DNA of 40,491 nt from Singulisphaera sp. GP187 (GTDB taxonomy: Bacteria > Planctomycetota > Phycisphaerae > Phycisphaerales > SM1A02), in assembly GCA_945888705.1 (NCBI GenBank), contig CAMDAQ010000008.1, forward strand, positions 1-40,491, written 5' to 3'. Under the pieces are notes generated by a model that ran no database searches, was not told the DNA's origin, and saw nothing but the letters and a program-made list of their open reading frames with translations. This document shows positions 12,164 to 37,749 of the stretch, in pieces (the first letter of the stretch is position 1; each line of letters starts with the position of its first letter). Made by a program: the position numbers and the translations under genes.

Positions 12164-13435
12164 ATGGACGCGCAAATCTGCGACTTCGCCCCCGCTGATC
12201 TCGGTGCCGCCGCTCAGCTCCTCGAGCGCCTCCGGACGCTCCCGGACAGTGCGCCGATCGAGATCGCGCAGTTCATTGCGGACATCAATGATGGCGCGAT
12301 CGCGGTAGTCGCCCTTGGGGGTGGCACGCTGGTCGGCGTGGCCAGTGCCCGTGTCGCCGGCGATAGGGCCTGGACACAGATGGTGGCCATCGATCCCGGC
12401 TGGCGACGGCGCGGCATCGGATCCGCGCTCGCACGGCGTCTTGAAGAGCGGCTGCTGCACCTTGGCGTGCGCAAGATCTCAGCACTGATCGGACCAGGCG
12501 AGGTCGGTGAACAGGCGCTCCTCAATCGCGGCTTCACCGCGCGCAAAGGCATGGTGCTCTACGAGAAGTTCCTTGCCCTGCAGCCGGCTGATGTGCGCAC
12601 CATCGACAAGTGGGGCGGACAGATCGTGGATGGCGAACTGTGGGACCAGGCCGCGGGCATGAAGCGCGAGAAGGCGCTTATCGACGGGCGCATAGTGGCG
12701 CCGCTGGCGGATCCGGCGCTGGCGGCGCAGGCCGGACTGCGTCCCCCCGCGACCGTGCTGATGTTCGGTCCTCCCGGCACGGGCAAGACCACGTTCGCCC
12801 GGGCGCTCGCAGGCCGACTCGGCTGGCCATTCGTGGAGTTGCTGCCGTCGAAACTGGCGACGGGCGAGGGCATGCTCGCCAACGAGCTGCGCGAGGCGCT
12901 GCTTGAACTCGGCCAGCTCGACCATGTCGTGATCTTCATCGACGAGTTCGACGAGATCGCACCAGCCCGCGAAAGTCGACCCGCCTCCGCGGGAGTCGTG
13001 AATCAGTTGCTGAAGTCCATTCCAGAATTGCGAAGGCGCCCGGGCAAGCTGCTGATCTGTGCCACCAACTTCGTCAACACCATCGATCCGGCGGTGATAC
13101 GTCCGGGGCGCTTCGATCTGCTGATCGGCATCGGCCCGCCCGACCACGCGGCGCTGACCGCGCTGTGGGAGCGCGCGCTGTCCACGATGCACGTCCAGCG
13201 AGGAGTCGATGCATCGGCCCTCGCGACCAGCTGCAGCGGGTTCACGCCGGGCGACGTGGACCTTGCCGCGCAGCGGGCGGCCGCCGAAGCCTTCTCTCGC
13301 GCGCGCGGAACCGGCCAGACCGCCGTGGTCACCAGCGATGACCTGACGATGTCCGTCCATCGCACCCGTGCATCCATCACGCCGACCATGCTCGAAGCCT
13401 TCAACGCTGAGGTGGAGCGGTTCGAGCGGGTCTGA
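12164..13435 (+). CDS. Fusion protein: N-terminal GNAT acetyltransferase-like domain + C-terminal AAA+ ATPase
   Basis: GNAT: 'MVAIDPGWRRRGIGSALARRLEERL...LLNRGF'; AAA+: 'LMFGPPGTGKTTFARALA', 'VVIFIDEFDEIA', 'LLICATNFVNTIDPAVIRPGRFD'. Confidence 0.92.
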   Translation: MDAQICDFAPADLGAAAQLLERLRTLPDSAPIEIAQFIADINDGAIAVVALGGGTLVGVASARVAGDRAWTQMVAIDPGWRRRGIGSALARRLEERLLHLGVRKISALIGPGEVGEQALLNRGFTARKGMVLYEKFLALQPADVRTIDKWGGQIVDGELWDQAAGMKREKALIDGRIVAPLADPALAAQAGLRPPATVLMFGPPGTGKTTFARALAGRLGWPFVELLPSKLATGEGMLANELREALLELGQLDHVVIFIDEFDEIAPARESRPASAGVVNQLLKSIPELRRRPGKLLICATNFVNTIDPAVIRPGRFDLLIGIGPPDHAALTALWERALSTMHVQRGVDASALATSCSGFTPGDVDLAAQRAAAEAFSRARGTGQTAVVTSDDLTMSVHRTRASITPTMLEAFNAEVERFERV

Positions 13436-13559
13436 TCCGCGCCTCCCAAGGCGACGCACTTCGCCCCCAAAGCGGCGCCCGAAACTGAGACTTTGGGCGT
13501 CACAGCACCCGACCGCCCCGGTTCGCACTGCTTCGTTCCGCCCCCGCGTAACCCCCCAA

Positions 13560-13608
13560 ACGCAGCGTGGTTGTGCCGCTCGGTGCGAGCGAACACAACC
13601 ACGTGCGT
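13560..13608. other. Long imperfect hairpin in intergenic DNA
   Basis: acgca(g)cgtggttgtg (13560-13575) pairs with cacaaccacgtgcgt (13594-13608); inner stem gctcg/cgagc. Confidence 0.85.
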
Positions 13609-13615
13609 TCTTCTT

Positions 13616-13636
13616 CAGTGGGCGGAGAGGGTTCGA
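13616..13636 (-). other. tRNA 3'-end-like fragment, copy 1
   Basis: cagtgggcggagagggttcga; reverse complement TCGAACCCTCTCCGCCCACTG resembles T-arm plus acceptor 3' strand. Confidence 0.6.
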
Positions 13637-13760
13637 CGTCCGCGAAGCGGGCGCCGCAATCCCGGCGCGGCGCAGCCGCGCGCGGACCGGCGCAGCCGGG
13701 ACGCCCTACGCCCACGAAACGAAGGAGCACGCTCGCCAAAGGCGACCGTGATCCTGAGTG

Positions 13761-13783
13761 CAGTGGGCGGAGAGGGATTCGAA
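13761..13783 (-). other. tRNA 3'-end-like fragment, copy 2
   Basis: cagtgggcggagagggattcgaa; reverse complement TTCGAATCCCTCTCCGCCCACTG; shares 16 bp with copy 1; no matching 5' acceptor strand found nearby. Confidence 0.6.
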
Positions 13784-13963
13784 CCACCCCCTCCTCGTCA
13801 GCCGGCAGCTTCAAACCGTCATGGAAGACCCGGCTCGAGCCCAATCGCGATTCACTGGTGCACCTTTCACGAACTTCCCCCCACCAGGTCTCGTTTGACT
13901 GCCAACCCAGTGGTAGAACATGTCCGTGCTTCGCCGCAACAGGCTGCACCTTCCGGAGGTCCC

Positions 13964-15136
13964 ATGGCCGACATCACGCCCGACTCGCGTTCGCGCCCCT
14001 CGCCCGTCGAACTCCAGCCCCCGACCTTCGAGCACCTCACCGAAGCACCCTCGATCGCTTCGCTCCTCACGAAGACCGTCTCGAACAGCCTGCATTCGCG
14101 ATCGCGATTCCCGCACACGCTCCTGGTCGGCCCACCGGACAGTGGCAAGCAGATCATGGCCGCCACGATCGCCTCCGAGATGGGGGTCTCCCTGACCACC
14201 ATCCACGCTCCGTCGATCACCGACATGCGAGACTTGGATCACAAGCTCCGCGCAGTACCCGCCAGCTCTGTCGTGCTGTTCTCGCAGATCGACCGTGCCG
14301 ATTGGATCTCGGCCCAGTTCTGCCGGATTGCGGCTGGCCTGCCCGTGTCCGTACCGCAGAGCTGGCGTGGAGCCGACGCCCCCGGTGACGAGTGGAGCTC
14401 CAAGATCGACAACCACCCGTATCACGACTTCACCATCATCGCCACCAGCCGTGCGCCGCGGGCCGATCACCGCGTCATGAACGAATGGGCCGAGGTCACG
14501 ATTCGCACCGAGCGCACCGAGCGATCCGAGTCCATCCGCCTGGAGCGGGTGTTCCATCGGCTCGGCGTCAAGGTCGCGCCAGCCGCGCTCGCTAGGCTCG
14601 CCTCGTTCGGGACCAACAGCCAGATCCGCACGCTCATGCTCGCGCGCAACGTGGTCGCCCTGACGGAAGCACGGCACGGAAGCTCGATCGACCTCGCTGC
14701 TGTAGAGCCCGCGCTGCATGACATCACCGAGATCATGCTGACCCGCGCCGAACGCGAGCGGCTCCGATCGGGCGATTCGCTCTCGCGGAGCGAGAGTACG
14801 GCCAACCGGGGCCTGCTCGGCGCGCTTGCGGGATCACTCGACCGCTCCATCGACATCGATCCCGAAGTCAAGCGGAAGAAGCGCAACAAGACCATTCGTG
14901 AAGTCGTGCTTGTGAGCCTCGGCGTGATCGTGGTGTTCTCGACCAGCGTGTTCCTGGCGAAGTGGATCGACCATCGCTTCATCGAACTGCGAAGGACCAA
15001 CGCCGAGGCATCCGGGCAGTCCCTGACGGCAGCCGATCCCGGAACAACCAGTCCGCCTGTGGAGGGCTCGGTTTCCGAAGGTGCCTCCGCGGCACCAACC
15101 TCGGATGCGAGCGCCGCATCACCTACCCCACCCTGA
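13964..15136 (+). CDS. RuvB-like AAA protein with degenerate nucleotide-binding motifs and a C-terminal transmembrane segment
   Basis: RuvB-like order: 'HTLLVGPPDSGKQIMAATIASEMG', 'SSVVLFSQIDRAD', 'DFTIIATSRAPRADHRVMNEWAEVTIR'; TM 'EVVLVSLGVIVVFSTSVFLAKW'. Confidence 0.7.
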   Translation: MADITPDSRSRPSPVELQPPTFEHLTEAPSIASLLTKTVSNSLHSRSRFPHTLLVGPPDSGKQIMAATIASEMGVSLTTIHAPSITDMRDLDHKLRAVPASSVVLFSQIDRADWISAQFCRIAAGLPVSVPQSWRGADAPGDEWSSKIDNHPYHDFTIIATSRAPRADHRVMNEWAEVTIRTERTERSESIRLERVFHRLGVKVAPAALARLASFGTNSQIRTLMLARNVVALTEARHGSSIDLAAVEPALHDITEIMLTRAERERLRSGDSLSRSESTANRGLLGALAGSLDRSIDIDPEVKRKKRNKTIREVVLVSLGVIVVFSTSVFLAKWIDHRFIELRRTNAEASGQSLTAADPGTTSPPVEGSVSEGASAAPTSDASAASPTPP

Positions 15137-17043: not shown

Positions 17044-20000
17044 TTATTGAACATTCTTCGGGCGCGCCACATAGCACAGCGGCGCCGCGATCAGCACCGA
17101 ACTGGCCGTACCCGCAATGAGGCCGACCAGGAAGGTGTAGGCAAACGGCCGGATGCCGGTGCCGCCGAGCCAGAACAGGATCAGTGCCGTGGCCAGGGTC
17201 GCGCCGCCGGTGAGCACCGTACGGCTGAAGGTCTGGTTGATGGCGTCGTTGACCATGTCGCGCGTGGCGAACTCGGCCTTGCCCTTGTTCTCGCGGATGC
17301 GGTCGAGGATGACGATCGTGTCGTTCAGCGAGTAACCGATGATCGTCAGCAAGCCCGAGATCACGTTCAGGTCGATGCGGAAGCCCTCGATGAGCGTGGA
17401 GGCGCCAAAGGCCGAACCCTCGGTGCGGATGCTGAACGCCAGCGCGCCCAGGCAGACGCAGACGTTGAACGACACGGCCACGATCGTCGCCATGCTGTAC
17501 CGCAGGCTGCCGAAGCGCAGCCAGATGTACAGCAGCATGCCGATCATGCTGAGGACGACCGCCACCACGGCGCTTGCCGCCAGGTTCTCGGCGACCTTGG
17601 GCGAGAAGCTGCTCACCTGCTCCAGGCTGAGCTTCTGCGTGAGCGCCGCGTTGACGAGCTTCCACTCCGGCTGGGCCACCACACGATCCCACGTTGCGGC
17701 ATCGACCTTGGAGAGCAGCGCCTTGGGATCGACCGTCAGCATGACGATCGACGTGTAGCCCGCATTCGGATTGCCGGCCTGCGCCATGTCGAGGCCGATG
17801 AGCTCGGTCTCGCGCGACGAGATGGGCCCGAAGTCAGGCTGCGACCGCATGCGGCCGAGGCGCGCCTGCGCATCGGCCAGCGTGATCGGCGGAGCGATGC
17901 CCTCGATCAGCACGGCGACGCCACCGGCGTACTCGCGCACGCTCTCGTTGCGGCCATCGCGCCCGATGACCGCGCCGAGCGTCTCGGCGTTGACCGGCCG
18001 GGTCTGGAGCGCAGCAGCATCGGAGCCCGCGCCCTTGAAGGTCAGGGGCAGCGTGACTTCGATGTCCTTGGCGAAGGCGTTGGCGACCGCGTCGACGACG
18101 GGCTCGGTGGCCGTGTCGTCGCCGCTGAAGTCAGCGGGGTTGGCGACCTTGATCTGGAAGGACGAGGCCTTGCCATCGGCGGTCGAATCACCCACGGTCA
18201 GCACGCTGGCGTTGCGCAGCTGGGCCACCGCGGCCGAAGCACCCGCGGCCTCTCCGATCGCGCGGATGCGCTGTTCGACCTCGGCGCGAGTCAGGGCCAG
18301 GCGGCCATCTGCGCTTGCGGCCTCGCCCGTCGCGGCGCGACGGGTGACGAGCGTCATCGTCATGCCGCCGCGGAACTCGGTGTCGAGCATCTCGCGGCCG
18401 CTGGTGAAGGTCGCCACGATGCTGACGACCGCCAGCACGATGCAGCCGAGCCAGAGCACGCCGCGCTTGCCGATCCAGTCGATGTTCGGACGCAGCGCCG
18501 AGGCGATGCCCGGGAAGATCGTGGTGATGAACGGCAGGCTCTTGCGGTTCAGGACCGTGGTCCACACGTCGAGCAGCACTCGGGTCACCACGATGGCCGT
18601 GAAGAGCGTGGTGATCACGCCGATGGCCATGGTGAGCGCGAAGCCCTTCACTTCCGTCGCCGCGACCTTGTACAGCACGACGCAGACGATCAGGTTCGTG
18701 ATGTTGCCGTCGACGATCGCGCTGAAGGCACGCTTGTAGGCGATGTCGACCGCGTCGCGCAGACGCTCCTTGTGCTCGGCCATCTCCTCGCGCAGGCGCT
18801 CGAAGATGAGCACGTTGGCATCGACCGCCATGGCGATCGAGAGTGCCACGCCAGCGAGGCCCGGCAGCGTGAACGAACCGTCGATCGCCGCCATCGTGCC
18901 GAACAGGAACAAGGCGTTGAGGGCCAGGGCGATCACGGCGATGATGCCGCCGCCGAGGTACCAGGCCACCATGATCACGGCCGTTGCACCGGCCGAGAGC
19001 AGGAGCGCCTCGAACCCGCGGGCCAGGTTGTCCTTGCCGAGCGCCGGGCCGAGGATGCTGACCGAGACGGGCTCGGGCTTGAGCTTGGCCTCGAGTTCGC
19101 CGCCTTCGAGCACGCGGATCAGGTAGGTGATGTCCTCGTTGGAGAAGTTGCCGGTGATGCGGCCTGAGCCGTTGATCTGCGACTGCAGGGTGGGCGCGGT
19201 GTAGAGCTCGCCGTCGAGCACGATGCCCATGGGGCGCTGCAGGTTGGCGCCGGTGAGCCGGCCCATCGCGATGCCGCCCTGCTGGTCAAGCTGGAACGCG
19301 ACGCACGGACGTCCGAACTCGTCGGCGTCGCGGCGCGCGCTCTTCATCGACCAGACCTGGCCCGGCGCGTGCGTCATGCTCATCGCATCGGTGTCGTAGA
19401 GCAGGACGTAGACCTGGCCCTCGTGCTGAGCCGACACCATGTCGCGGCCGCGGAAGAAGGTCGCGGGATCAGCCAGCAGTGCCTCGAGCTGGCGCGGATC
19501 GTCGTACCACTGCTTCAGGTCGTTGAGCCGGTACCAGCTCGCAACCACGCTGTCGGTGCCATCGGGGCCGCGCTCGGACAGCTGCGTCTGCAGCTCGCCC
19601 ACGTTCACGCCCTGCGGGTTCGCAGCGCTGACGGGGATGTGGAACTCAAGCACGCCCGCGGCGCGCAGCAGGCGCTTCAGGTCCTCGGGATCCTCGTAGC
19701 CGGTCATCGCCGACGCGTAGGCGTCGTACTCCTTGACCAGTGCATCGAGCTCGGCCGAGTATTCGGGGCACTGCTTGGCGATCGCCTCGAGCTCGCGCTC
19801 GCGGGGGCTCGGGCCGTACACAGGGTTGCCGGCCTCGTCGAAGAGGGCCTTGCCCTTGTCGTCGCGAAGGCGGTCACCCTTGGTCGAGAGCTGGAAGGCG
19901 CGCTTGAGGCGCGACTCGTTCACGCTCGAGGCAAGCAGCGACTCCCGGGCCTTGCGCTCGAGGAGTTCGGCGGAAGCGATGCGCTCCTCGATGGGAGCGA

Positions 20001-20547
20001 GCGCGGCGGCATCGGCGGCCTGCTCAAGCGCGGCCTGGTAGGCGGCGCGGGCCTCGATGGCCTGGTCGTGCGAGGTCTGCAGCTGGGCAAGCAGTTCCGC
20101 GCGGCTGCCGGCTGCGGGTGCGGCACCATCCTTGGGTGCGGGCACGAGCGAGGTCGCGCTGCGTTCCTGCAGCGCGCGGTCGAGTTCGCGCGCGGTGAGC
20201 TGCATGCGACCGGCCACTTCTGCCAGGCGGATTCGGAAGGCATCCTGCAGCCCCTTGCCTTCTTCCGAAGGCAGTGGCATGACGATCTCGATGCGGTCCC
20301 GACCCTGCGGGGTCATGCTGATGTCGAGCACACCCTGCGGGTTCACGCGCCGCTTGAGCGCATCGATCACCTGCGTGAGCACCGACGGCGAATCGACGCC
20401 CTCGGGCATCTCGACGGCGTAGACGAGGCTGACCCCGCCGCGCAGGTCCTTGCCCAGGCGGATCTTCTCCTTGGGCGGCCAGACGGCGAGCGCCGCGAGC
20501 ACGGCAAGGACAGCGATGAGGATGATCTTCGTGGTCAGCTTGTTCAT
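17044..20547 (-). CDS. secDF: Protein translocase subunit SecDF (fused SecD-SecF)
   Basis: 1167 aa; SecD: 'KIRLGKDLRGGVSLVY', 'AIDGSFTLPGLAGVALSIAMAVDANVLIFERLREE'; SecF: 'LDTEFRGGMTMTLV', 'TIIGYSLNDTIVILDRIREN'. Confidence 0.97.
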   Translation of the reverse strand: MNKLTTKIILIAVLAVLAALAVWPPKEKIRLGKDLRGGVSLVYAVEMPEGVDSPSVLTQVIDALKRRVNPQGVLDISMTPQGRDRIEIVMPLPSEEGKGLQDAFRIRLAEVAGRMQLTARELDRALQERSATSLVPAPKDGAAPAAGSRAELLAQLQTSHDQAIEARAAYQAALEQAADAAALAPIEERIASAELLERKARESLLASSVNESRLKRAFQLSTKGDRLRDDKGKALFDEAGNPVYGPSPRERELEAIAKQCPEYSAELDALVKEYDAYASAMTGYEDPEDLKRLLRAAGVLEFHIPVSAANPQGVNVGELQTQLSERGPDGTDSVVASWYRLNDLKQWYDDPRQLEALLADPATFFRGRDMVSAQHEGQVYVLLYDTDAMSMTHAPGQVWSMKSARRDADEFGRPCVAFQLDQQGGIAMGRLTGANLQRPMGIVLDGELYTAPTLQSQINGSGRITGNFSNEDITYLIRVLEGGELEAKLKPEPVSVSILGPALGKDNLARGFEALLLSAGATAVIMVAWYLGGGIIAVIALALNALFLFGTMAAIDGSFTLPGLAGVALSIAMAVDANVLIFERLREEMAEHKERLRDAVDIAYKRAFSAIVDGNITNLIVCVVLYKVAATEVKGFALTMAIGVITTLFTAIVVTRVLLDVWTTVLNRKSLPFITTIFPGIASALRPNIDWIGKRGVLWLGCIVLAVVSIVATFTSGREMLDTEFRGGMTMTLVTRRAATGEAASADGRLALTRAEVEQRIRAIGEAAGASAAVAQLRNASVLTVGDSTADGKASSFQIKVANPADFSGDDTATEPVVDAVANAFAKDIEVTLPLTFKGAGSDAAALQTRPVNAETLGAVIGRDGRNESVREYAGGVAVLIEGIAPPITLADAQARLGRMRSQPDFGPISSRETELIGLDMAQAGNPNAGYTSIVMLTVDPKALLSKVDAATWDRVVAQPEWKLVNAALTQKLSLEQVSSFSPKVAENLAASAVVAVVLSMIGMLLYIWLRFGSLRYSMATIVAVSFNVCVCLGALAFSIRTEGSAFGASTLIEGFRIDLNVISGLLTIIGYSLNDTIVILDRIRENKGKAEFATRDMVNDAINQTFSRTVLTGGATLATALILFWLGGTGIRPFAYTFLVGLIAGTASSVLIAAPLCYVARPKNVQ

Positions 20548-33436: not shown

Positions 33437-34189
33437 ATGAAGCTCTTCTGGTCGCTGCTCGCTCTCCTCATCGCCGCCGGTGCGTGGATCCTCCTCGCGC
33501 CGGAGGGCGGCGATGCACCACCCGCGATGGATGCGGTCAATACGGTCGGCCGCTCAATCGACCTGCCCATGCGCGGCGGCTCGACGCCTGCAGCCCGTGA
33601 CGGGGCCAAGGAAGCCGAAGCCACCGTCGCGACAGGCGCCCCGGTGCGCGAGCCCGAGAAGGCGCCCGAAGGCGGACTTTCGGTCGGGCTCGATGCGCGC
33701 ATCGAGGATGCCATGGTCAAGGCCGGCATGCTGAAGCAGGAGGACGGCGAGATCGTCGCCGACGGCAACTTCATCATCCGCGGTTCGGGCACCAAGGATG
33801 CTCCGTACGAAGTCTCGTGGGACCTTCTCCAGAGCAGCTCGAACACCTACGTGCCGCGGCTGAGCGAGAAGATCATCCCGCAGCGCATCGCGATGCTGCA
33901 TGGCAAGTGGGTGACGATCGCGGGGTACATCGCCTTCCCGATCGTCTCGACGGAGTCGGATGAGCTCCTGGCCATGCTGAACCAGTGGGATGGCTGCTGC
34001 ATCGGCGTGCCGCCATCGCCCTACGACGCGGTCGAGGTCAAGCTCGCGGCGCCCGTCGAGGTCGGCCTCAAGCACCAGATCAGGTTTGCCTCGATCACCG
34101 GCATCTTCCGCGTGCAGCCGTACGTGATGGAGCGCTGGCTCGTCGGCCTCTACCTGATGGATGAGGCCACGCTCTCGCAGGACATGTGA
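33437..34189 (+). CDS. DUF3299-like exported protein
   Basis: 'VSWDLLQSSSN...MLHGKWVTIAGYIAFPI...LNQWDGCCIGVPPSPYDAVEVKL' resembles DUF3299. Confidence 0.65.
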   Translation: MKLFWSLLALLIAAGAWILLAPEGGDAPPAMDAVNTVGRSIDLPMRGGSTPAARDGAKEAEATVATGAPVREPEKAPEGGLSVGLDARIEDAMVKAGMLKQEDGEIVADGNFIIRGSGTKDAPYEVSWDLLQSSSNTYVPRLSEKIIPQRIAMLHGKWVTIAGYIAFPIVSTESDELLAMLNQWDGCCIGVPPSPYDAVEVKLAAPVEVGLKHQIRFASITGIFRVQPYVMERWLVGLYLMDEATLSQDM

Positions 34190-34204: not shown

Positions 34205-36004
34205 ATGATGACCGCCCCGCTCGTCGTCCTTCAGCTCGCCTTCCTGCAGGATGCCGCCGTGCCCGCGCAACCTCCGGCGCCCGCGCCAACTCCGGCCCCC
34301 GCACCGGCCTCCGAGCCGACCAAGCCCACGCCACCGCCAACGAGCTTTGGTGAACTCGTCTCGCTTGAGGCGCTCGAGCAGTCACTGCGGCAGCTCGCTG
34401 CAGCGAGCGATGGAAAGGTCACGCTCTCGTCGATCGGCACCAGCACGGCCGGCCGGACCATCCACGCGCTGCACGCGACGAACCAGCCCAAGCGCAAGGT
34501 GCCCGTGCCCGCGGTGCTGATCGTGGCGGGCCTCGACGGCTGGCATCGCTCAGGAAGCTTGGTGGCCGCCGGTGTCGCGGAGCGCTTCGCGCTCGAGCAG
34601 CGGGCTGCGATCGATGCTCGAACCGTGCTCGATGGACTCGACCTGTGGGTGATCCCCGTGGCGAATCCCGATGCGTGGGCCACGGGCCTCGGTCGCCCGC
34701 AGGACCACGCCGGCCGAGTGGGCACGGGGATCGACGATGACCGCGATGGCCGCGTCGATGAGGATGCCCCGCGCGATGTCAATGGTGATGGCGTGATCGC
34801 CATGATGCGTCGACTCGACTGTCCTTCAGATGCGCCTGCGACACGCGTGGCCGATGCGGCCGATCCACGGCTCGACCGTGCGCCGGATGGCGCCAAGGGT
34901 GAACTCGCCGCGTTCTCGCTGGTAATCGAAGGCCTTGACCAGGATGGCGACGGCAGCGTGGGCGAGGATGCCATCGGCGGCATCACCGTGGATGCGAACT
35001 TCCCCCACCTCTGGCGAGAATTCGCCGCCGATGCCGCTCGATTCCCGCTCGAGGCTCCCGAAGCCAAGGCCCTCGCCGAGTTCATCCGCACCCATCCGGG
35101 GCTCGGAGCGGTCTATGTCCTCGGGCGCCAGGATTCGCTGGCGCGCACGCCCAACCATGAGCGGCGCGACATCACGGGCCGCACGCCGGTCTTCATCGAT
35201 GGCGATGACAAGGCGCTCTATGAACGCATCGGCAAGCTCTACCGCGACTCGACCGGGATCGAGCGCGCGCGCGACGCCGCACACGAGGGTTCGTTCGCAG
35301 CATGGTGCTACGCGCATCGCGGGCTGCCCACGTTCTGCAGCCAGGTCTGGCAGCGGCCGGATCCCTCGCCGCCGCCAGAGGACAAGAAGCCAGAGGACAA
35401 GAAGGATGCTCCCAAGCCCAACGACGAGGAGTCCGCGGCGTGGCTTGCATGGAGCGATCGCGATCAAGGCGGCCGGGGCTTCCTGCCATGGAAGCCGTTC
35501 GACCACCCAACCCTGGGCAAGGTCGAGATCGGAGGCTGGGCACCGGGCTTTCGCACCGAGCCACCGGGCGCCCTGCTGCCCGAGCTCATCACCAAGCACG
35601 CGGGTTTCGTCGCTGCGCTCGCCGGTGAATCCGCGCGCGTGCGCGTGGAGCGCGTGAAGGCGCGCGAGATCGCACCGGGCGTCACGGAGATCACGGTCGA
35701 CCTCGTCAATGATGGCCGCATGCCGATGACGACCTCGATGGCCCGCACCAACGATGCCGTGCCGCCGCTGCGCCTGCGGGCCAAGGTCGGTGTCGATGCG
35801 CTGCTCTCGGGCGACATCGAACGCCGCATCGAGCGGCTCGACCCGGGCTCGCGCGCGAGCGTCTCGTGGACGGTGCGGCGCGCCCCAAAGTCCCTCGTCG
35901 AGATCGGTGTGCACTACCCGAACGGACGCTTCGACCGGGTCATGGTGGATGATGATGCGCTGCCCCACGGCGGTCGCGTGCTCGAAGGAGGCTGGGAATG
36001 GTGA
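34205..36004 (+). CDS. M14 carboxypeptidase-like protein, catalytic residues apparently lost (pseudoenzyme candidate)
   Basis: Aligns with the adjacent downstream M14 protein, same Ca-binding-like loops (DDDRDGRVDED, DQDGDGSVGED), but zinc and catalytic positions differ. Confidence 0.8.
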   Translation: MMTAPLVVLQLAFLQDAAVPAQPPAPAPTPAPAPASEPTKPTPPPTSFGELVSLEALEQSLRQLAAASDGKVTLSSIGTSTAGRTIHALHATNQPKRKVPVPAVLIVAGLDGWHRSGSLVAAGVAERFALEQRAAIDARTVLDGLDLWVIPVANPDAWATGLGRPQDHAGRVGTGIDDDRDGRVDEDAPRDVNGDGVIAMMRRLDCPSDAPATRVADAADPRLDRAPDGAKGELAAFSLVIEGLDQDGDGSVGEDAIGGITVDANFPHLWREFAADAARFPLEAPEAKALAEFIRTHPGLGAVYVLGRQDSLARTPNHERRDITGRTPVFIDGDDKALYERIGKLYRDSTGIERARDAAHEGSFAAWCYAHRGLPTFCSQVWQRPDPSPPPEDKKPEDKKDAPKPNDEESAAWLAWSDRDQGGRGFLPWKPFDHPTLGKVEIGGWAPGFRTEPPGALLPELITKHAGFVAALAGESARVRVERVKAREIAPGVTEITVDLVNDGRMPMTTSMARTNDAVPPLRLRAKVGVDALLSGDIERRIERLDPGSRASVSWTVRRAPKSLVEIGVHYPNGRFDRVMVDDDALPHGGRVLEGGWEW

Positions 36005-37749
36005 TGGCTCCGATGATCGTGATCGCAGCGGCGGCGTTCGCGCCGCAGGATGCCCTGCCGAGCAAGTCGGGCATCGCGTGGAACCGCTATCGCGACTACG
36101 ACGAGCTGCTCGAGGCCGTGCGGCAGATCGCCGCACGTTCGCCGGACCTCGTGCGCATCGAGGAGATCGGCAAGAGCGCCCTCGGCCGGCCGATGGTCGT
36201 GGCGATCGTCAACAACCCGGCGACCGGCCCCGAGGCCTCGAAGCCCGCGATGTGGATCGACGGCAACATCCACGGCAACGAAGTGCAGGCCGGCGAGGTC
36301 GTGGGCTACACGCTCGATGCGCTCTGCAACGCGCACGGCCGGGTGCCGGAGCTCACGGAACTCATCGACCGCTCGGTCTTCTACCTCTGCCCGAGTGTGA
36401 ATCCCGATGGCCGCGATGAGTGGTTCAGCAAGGCCCACACGCCGCACTCCAACCGCACCGGGCTGCAGCCGTTCGACAACGATCGCGACGGCGAACTCGA
36501 CGAGGATGGCCCGGATGACCTTGACGGCGACGGGTCGATCGGCCAGATGTGGCGCAAGGATCCCAACGGCACGCACCGTCGCGATCCGCGCGACCCGCGG
36601 CGATTCACGCCGGTGTCGCGCGAACCCAAGCCCGACGGCACCTTGGAACGCGGCGACTGGAGCTTCGCCGGCGAGGAAGGGATCGACAACGACGGCGATG
36701 GCCGCGTGAACGAGGATGGCCAGGGCGGCTATGACATGAACCGCAACTGGCCGAGCGACTGGCAACCGGACCACGTCCAGCGCGGCGCGGGGCCGTGGCC
36801 GCTCTCCTACCCGGAAACGCGCTGCGTGGCGGAGTTCATCCTGGCTCGCCCGAACATCGCCGCGGTGCAGAGCTACCACAACGCCGGCGGGATGATCCTG
36901 CGCGGCCCGGGCGCGCAATACAACGAGTCGGCCTACCCCGCGAGCGATCGCGCTGCCTATGACGCGATCGCCGCCGCTGGCGCGCAGATGCTCCCTGCCT
37001 ACCGGCCGATGGTGATCTACAAGGATCTCTACACCGTGCATGGCGGCTTCGTGAACTGGACCGCCGAGGGCCTGGGCATCGTCTCGTTCACCAACGAGCT
37101 CTGGAGCGACCAGCGCATCATGCAGAACGGGCAGGACCCCAACGAGGAGCAGCGGGCGCGGTGGCGCGACGATGTCCTTTTCGGGCGCACCTTCAAGAAC
37201 TGGACCGAAGTGCAGCATCCGACGCTCGGCACCATCCTGGTGGGCGGGCAGAACAAGTGGTCCAGCCGCGTCACGCCGCACTTCATGCTCGAGGAAGAGT
37301 GCCACCGCAACTTCGCGTTCACGACCTTCCATGCGAGCCAGATCCCGCTCCTCCGGGCTGGCCACACGCGCGTACGATCGCTCAGCGAAGGCGTGTGGGA
37401 AGTCTCGGTCGAGGTGTGCAACGATCGACGCATCCCCACGCGCACCGGTCGTGCCGCAGATCGCGGCATCGCGCGGCCTGATCTCCTGTCGATCGGGCTC
37501 ACCGATCCTGCTGGCGTGGTCGCCGCGGGCGGCGTGGCTGAGGGGGGCGTGCTCGATCGCACCTTCACGCCGGTCAAGGCGGAGCCAAGCCGGCTACGGG
37601 TCGAGCGCGGCATTCCCGGCCTTGGTTCGACGGTCTTCCGGTTCATCGTGCGCGCGAGCGCAGGATCGACGGCACGGCTTCGATACGAGAGCCAGAAGGC
37701 AACGCCACTGGACGTCGAGGTCGTGCTGCAGGAGCCCGTCGCGCCGTGA
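35998..37749 (+). CDS. M14 family zinc carboxypeptidase
   Basis: 'MWIDGNIHGNEVQAGEVVGYTLDAL' (HxxE), 'YDMNRNWPSDW', 'VQSYHNAGG' (third Zn His), 'SFTNELWS' (catalytic Glu); DxDGDG-type loops. Confidence 0.93.
   Translation: MVMAPMIVIAAAAFAPQDALPSKSGIAWNRYRDYDELLEAVRQIAARSPDLVRIEEIGKSALGRPMVVAIVNNPATGPEASKPAMWIDGNIHGNEVQAGEVVGYTLDALCNAHGRVPELTELIDRSVFYLCPSVNPDGRDEWFSKAHTPHSNRTGLQPFDNDRDGELDEDGPDDLDGDGSIGQMWRKDPNGTHRRDPRDPRRFTPVSREPKPDGTLERGDWSFAGEEGIDNDGDGRVNEDGQGGYDMNRNWPSDWQPDHVQRGAGPWPLSYPETRCVAEFILARPNIAAVQSYHNAGGMILRGPGAQYNESAYPASDRAAYDAIAAAGAQMLPAYRPMVIYKDLYTVHGGFVNWTAEGLGIVSFTNELWSDQRIMQNGQDPNEEQRARWRDDVLFGRTFKNWTEVQHPTLGTILVGGQNKWSSRVTPHFMLEEECHRNFAFTTFHASQIPLLRAGHTRVRSLSEGVWEVSVEVCNDRRIPTRTGRAADRGIARPDLLSIGLTDPAGVVAAGGVAEGGVLDRTFTPVKAEPSRLRVERGIPGLGSTVFRFIVRASAGSTARLRYESQKATPLDVEVVLQEPVAP

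Follow-up and report, generated by a model that had tools for sequence, protein, structure and literature searches.

A conserved tandem pair of M14 carboxypeptidase homologues in Planctomycetota, with an apparently inactive first member that may be a partner subunit of the second

The stretch of DNA analyzed here (the window, 40,491 nucleotides) is one contig of a 2.36 Mb genome and carries, on the plus strand, two adjacent genes for homologues of M14 family carboxypeptidases. The first (copy 1, 34205..36004; ORF list, Pfam, BLASTP, alignment and AF2 model) encodes a probably exported pseudo-carboxypeptidase of 599 aa, and the second (copy 2, 35998..37749; ORF list, Pfam and alignment) encodes a probably exported carboxypeptidase of 583 aa that is predicted to be active. 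In Pfam, copy 1 matches Peptidase_M14 (PF00246) over residues 58-156 with 43 bits (cut-off 21.6), a match that spans the N-terminal 100 residues of the domain; copy 2 matches the same family in two stretches with 150 bits. The two proteins are 27% identical over 500 columns (BLASTP, E=1e-29), in agreement with a preceding sequence-only reading of this DNA that described them as a tandem M14 pair. At the junction of the two genes (35984..36006, plus strand), an AAGGAGG-type ribosome site lies inside the end of copy 1, the ATG of copy 2 at 35998 is located 3' of this site and still within copy 1, and a second in-frame ATG overlaps the stop codon of copy 1 (TGATG, 36002-36006). Such a stop/start overlap favors translational coupling; the two genes are probably co-transcribed, presumably as a shared operon, and translationally coupled.

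The residues that correspond to each other in the two copies were read from two alignments, of 83 and 160 sequences, which gave the same result. Copy 2 contains the complete set expected of a catalytic M14 peptidase, namely the zinc ligands H92 and E95 of the HGNE motif (36271..36282), the third zinc ligand H294 (36877..36879), the general base E367 (37096..37098), the N248-R249 pair of the C-terminal carboxylate site (36739..36744) and Y345, the equivalent of Tyr248. The corresponding positions of copy 1, all on the same strand, are occupied by D111 and H114 in place of the zinc ligands H69 and E72 of the HxxE motif (34535..34546), G307 in place of His196 (35123..35125), Q380 in place of the general base Glu270 (35342..35344), D263-A264 in place of Asn144/Arg145 (34991..34996), and A358 opposite Y345. 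Two ligands of the zinc triad are therefore gone and the third, E72, is replaced by His. The sequence-only reading had pointed to the losses in the HGNE motif, the third zinc His, the Asn-Arg pair and the catalytic Glu, all of which hold in both alignments; the change of Tyr248 is an addition to them. Its broader statement, that every catalytic position is lost, is borne out for the zinc ligands, E270 and Y248 but not for the Arg127-equivalent column, where this copy 1 retains Arg (R203). The Arg145-equivalent column is likewise more varied, with Arg present in 45 of 77 copy-1 proteins, so that its absence is a feature of certain lineages, among them the one studied here. Misalignment and a wrong reading frame were considered as sources of these differences and ruled out because two alignments made separately and including many orthologues recovered identical residues. 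Judging from these substitutions, copy 1 would be unable to bind a catalytic zinc in the M14 manner or to activate water, and is accordingly predicted to be inactive as a peptidase.

The division between the two copies is strict among the scored proteins from the order, the class and the phylum. H69, E72, H196 and E270 are present in all of the 80, 80, 78 and 77 copy-2 proteins scored for the respective columns, and N144, R145 and Y248 are intact in every copy-2 protein as well (77-80 scored for each). Conversely, E270 is found in 0 of 76 copy-1 proteins, the whole zinc triad in none of 76, and H196 in a single protein out of 77, 70 of which have Gly at this position. Chance can be excluded as the source of these losses because they are the same in all 76 scored copy-1 proteins. 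Two deep copy-1 branches have partial triads: L138 (genome G372) contains HxxE without the third His, and L137 (G392) contains AxxE together with His196, both with Arg in the general-base column. Partial triads of this kind are expected if catalytic residues were lost stepwise from an active ancestor, and these two proteins might be intermediates of that process.

Apart from the active site, copy 1 retains the features of the family. The AF2 model built on its orthologues (pLDDT 86.6, pTM 0.87) has carboxypeptidases A, B, T and D as its best Foldseek matches in the PDB, with target-length TM-scores of about 0.5-0.7 that are modest due to the long inserts and an extra domain. Together with the PF00246 match, these results place copy 1 within the M14 fold, as had been suggested from the sequence. 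Two acidic loops are common to both copies: the first, DDDRDGRVDEDAPRDVNGDG in copy 1 (34733..34792) and DNDRDGELDEDGPDDLDGDG in copy 2 (36475..36534), and the second, DQDGDGSVGED (34937..34969) and DNDGDGRVNED (36685..36717), respectively, all on the plus strand. Their shared patterns (DxDRDGxxDED...DxxGDG and DxDGDGxxxED) resemble calcium-binding loops, and by this resemblance the loops probably bind Ca; the proposal that such loops persist in copy 1 is upheld by the alignments. They belong to the conserved positions of copy 1, which also include core glycines, tryptophans and positions in the C-terminal domain. The columns of the old active site drift, with the exception of Gly in place of His196: the E72 column also contains R, F, Q, D and other residues, and the E270 column, with R, P, Q, T, S, N and others, is unconstrained. 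The combination of a drifting old active site with conserved loops and a conserved C-terminal domain points to a structural or binding role rather than to a replacement catalytic site.

The selection regime and phylogeny of the two genes indicate that copy 1 is maintained and old. In six genomes of the genus (Nei-Gojobori), dN/dS is 0.07-0.17 for copy 1, mostly about 0.1, and 0.055-0.12 for copy 2, so that copy 1, too, is maintained by purifying selection, although it evolves faster (mean column identity of 36% versus 58% for copy 2 in the order-level sets). With the catalytic residues lost, the fold preserved in the model and purifying selection acting on the gene, copy 1 has the properties of an M14 pseudopeptidase. 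In a tree that included other M14 proteins of the same genomes as the outgroup, copy 1 is monophyletic (SH-aLRT 97.8), as is copy 2 (SH-aLRT 100). FastTree, applied to a larger set, gave concordant support (0.976 and 0.987, respectively), and an earlier FastTree run recovered both groups, with a support of just 0.27 for copy 1. The single copy-1 clade implies that the catalytic loss is ancient. The lineages of G392, G372 and G412 are basal in both halves of the tree, and the pairwise distances within copy 1 and within copy 2 are correlated (r=0.88), a value that common descent could produce by itself; the matching topology, too, is in part what shared ancestry would give. M14 proteins that carry these acidic loops and occur singly in other Planctomycetota families fall beside the copy-2 clade; several have intact zinc and NR motifs, and no second copy was matched in their genomes. 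These single proteins comprise L164-L177 and L180-L181, several with an intact HxxE; in those of G453, G594, G536, G639 and G572, the simple HxxE motif was not matched.

The pair recurs widely. Among the genome itself and 60 relatives (61 genomes), copy 1 is matched in 44 and copy 2 in 51, some of the latter through weak matches to other M14 genes. In the class, 51 of 298 genomes are matched by the copy-1 profile, and in the phylum sample 93 of 343, numbers that include cross-matches to copy 2. In 75 of the loci extracted from the order, the class and the phylum, a number that is biased as a frequency because the loci were picked for having matched, both genes are on one strand and copy 1 is directly upstream of copy 2; the reversed order was not encountered in any extracted locus. 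A dead and a live homologue thus lie side by side in all 75 loci, as would be expected of a two-subunit peptidase. There are few exceptions. The copy 1 and copy 2 genes of G285 lie on separate contigs, well away from the contig ends, and in G019, the immediate upstream neighbor of copy 2 was not recognized as copy 1. Contig ends fall within or next to the pair in G039, in part of G236 and in G366; the last of these has the usual order, but its copy 1 is truncated at the start of the contig. The surroundings are less stable: RecG, ABC/FtsX and DUF3299-like genes upstream and HI0933/HIT-like genes downstream are common to only a part of the family, outside of which the pair alone remains, and the other neighbors in the window are not found beside it. 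The recurrence of the dead and live pair across Planctomycetota suggests a probable function for the dead copy itself, most likely exercised together with the live neighbor.

Directly upstream of copy 1, the gene at 33437-34189 encodes an exported protein that is conserved with the pair in a part of the family and shows a sub-threshold match to DUF3299 (18 bits against a cut-off of 22); it adjoins genes for an ABC ATPase and a MacB/FtsX-type permease. Farther away, a 1167-aa protein encoded on the minus strand (17047-20547) combines SecD and SecF parts, and one plus-strand ORF (12164-13435) contains a GNAT acetyltransferase domain with an AAA ATPase domain C-terminal to it and adjoins an AAA/RuvB-like ORF (13493-15136).

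In one genome, G023, the dead and live M14 units are encoded in a single ORF of 1255 aa (L083:4644-8408), with copy 1 as the N-terminal half. The linker lacks the hydrophobic leader or signal peptide that separate copy-2 genes carry, which makes a simple sequencing error unlikely. In the AF2 model of the fusion (pTM 0.56, pLDDT 77), the halves fold and their orientation and interface are not confident; the underlying alignment is shallow, with 20 rows for the first half and 8 for the second, and in some rows copy 1 and copy 2 are in one frame with the single intergenic stop read through as an alignment device. By a crude run-length test, a hydrophobic leader is present in 69 of 75 copy-1 and 76 of 79 copy-2 proteins, so both copies are probably exported. 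The signal peptide attributed to copy 1 from the sequence is thus supported by most relatives, but in the genus represented here the leader is weak, without a basic n-region. In three genomes (G037, G046 and G250; L096, L102 and L119), the leader of copy 1 ends in a lipobox-like LAAC or LTGC, which is found in no copy 2; judging by this motif, copy 1 may be membrane-anchored in a few species.

Taken together, these observations make it somewhat better than an even bet that copy 1 is an ancient, selectively kept pseudo-carboxypeptidase that most likely serves as a non-catalytic partner subunit of copy 2. Under this interpretation, copy 1 would be an M14-folded protein that still has its C-terminal domain and the acidic loops, which probably bind Ca; copy 2 would be the active exported carboxypeptidase, and copy 1 would hold or present the substrate, or stabilize the live subunit, beyond the cytoplasmic membrane. 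The proposal of the sequence-only reading that the dead copy was retained for a non-catalytic role is strengthened by purifying selection, the retention of the pair, the ancient single origin and the lack of a conserved substitute set of ligands. Its suggestion that copy 1 binds or regulates its neighbor is plausible given the tandem retention while the neighbors change, the one fusion and the correlated divergence. We infer the physical partnership of the two copies and the exact role of copy 1, with substrate binding preferred over a chaperone or inhibitor function.

Of the other explanations, the one that fares best, though we consider it unlikely, is that the pseudoenzyme copy 1 has a binding function independent of copy 2, with cell-envelope or extracellular polymers or peptides as conceivable targets, and that the two genes have nothing more than an operon in common. 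The concentration of conservation in the acidic loops and the C-terminal domain, away from the old active site, would suit such a role, as would the different anchoring that the lipoprotein-type leaders of a few copy-1 proteins imply and the unlinked genes of G285. Eukaryotic M14 pseudopeptidases do act in this way, e.g., AEBP1 on collagen (PMC11266112). The phylum-wide retention of the pair despite changing neighbors and the fusion in G023 point instead to a shared function.

The position of copy 1, always upstream and as the N-terminal half of the fusion, is that of a propeptide, and coupled translation, favored by the stop/start overlap in the window, would fit a prodomain-like protein or a dedicated chaperone or inhibitor that folds copy 2 or holds it inactive until export. 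However, copy 1 spans the full length of an M14 homologue and has a conserved C-terminal domain of its own, whereas known M14 prodomains are much smaller, and the single intact relatives that occur without a matched partner indicate that the fold needs none. We consider this explanation improbable. A still fainter prospect is that copy 1 is an enzyme of a different kind, with a relocated metal site formed by Asp111, His114 and the His two residues past the old His196. Asp (53/75) and His (40/75) are indeed the commonest copy-1 residues in the old H69 and E72 columns, and a G-R-H-D motif is found near the old H196 in many relatives, but none of these candidates is invariant, the GRHD His is Gln in the genus of the window, the E72 column is variable, and the E270 column is unconstrained. 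With no conserved substitute set of ligands found, the D111/H114/GRHD site was rejected. Finally, the lost active site and the faster divergence of copy 1 might suggest a recent pseudogene that is open by chance, a reading that is refuted by dN/dS of about 0.1 and phylum-wide conservation in one ancient clade, with the reading frame intact in almost every genome across many families, and retains next to no credibility.

One 'zinc carboxypeptidase' in each such dead and live pair is unlikely to be an enzyme, which would be a warning for annotation. The roles of M14 pseudopeptidases are hard to test in the systems covered by the review literature; here, about 75 natural variants, one fusion and, as controls, unpaired intact relatives with the same family membership and loops make the role of a dead peptidase toward its active paralogue directly testable.

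Among known systems, the M14 pseudopeptidases covered by a 2024 review are animal or fungal (PMC11266112), and no bacterial or planctomycete one was found in the open-access literature, which is weak evidence of absence. AEBP1/ACLP, CPXM1, CPXM2 and Ecm14 resemble copy 1 in being secreted M14 homologues without some of the catalytic or substrate-binding residues. They are, however, eukaryotic, the review describes no conserved pairing with an active paralogue, and all four keep H69 and E72 (PMC11266112), in contrast to the loss of the zinc set from copy 1. In the animal M14 protein carboxypeptidase D (CPD), active and dead units are kept together, with two active units and one dead unit, the third, in one polypeptide; a role of the dead unit in binding proteins or in substrate presentation has been proposed (PMC11266112). 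The pair differs from CPD in comprising two bacterial genes, separate in the window and fused only in G023, in the dead unit coming first, and in the acidic loop inserts. A bacterial parallel in gene organization is provided by the M16B heterodimers (TTHA1264/TTHA1265, SPH2681/SPH2682 and AlbF/AlbE), in which the genes for a zinc-peptidase subunit and its homologous partner adjoin. The zinc motif is present in one chain, and TTHA1264, encoded with its neighbor in a two-gene operon (PMC11266112), is inactive alone and forms the active enzyme with the product of that neighbor (PMC12731061). The M16 fold and clam-shell are different, and association is proven there, whereas for the present pair it is a proposal. 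That the pair constitutes a two-subunit M14 carboxypeptidase of Planctomycetota, a counterpart of the M16B heterodimers in which the dead paralogue has been an obligate partner since the early history of the phylum, is a tentative proposal with chances slightly short of even. A pseudoenzyme encoded beside its enzyme is a known kind of arrangement; its M14 version, spread across a bacterial phylum, appears to be new.
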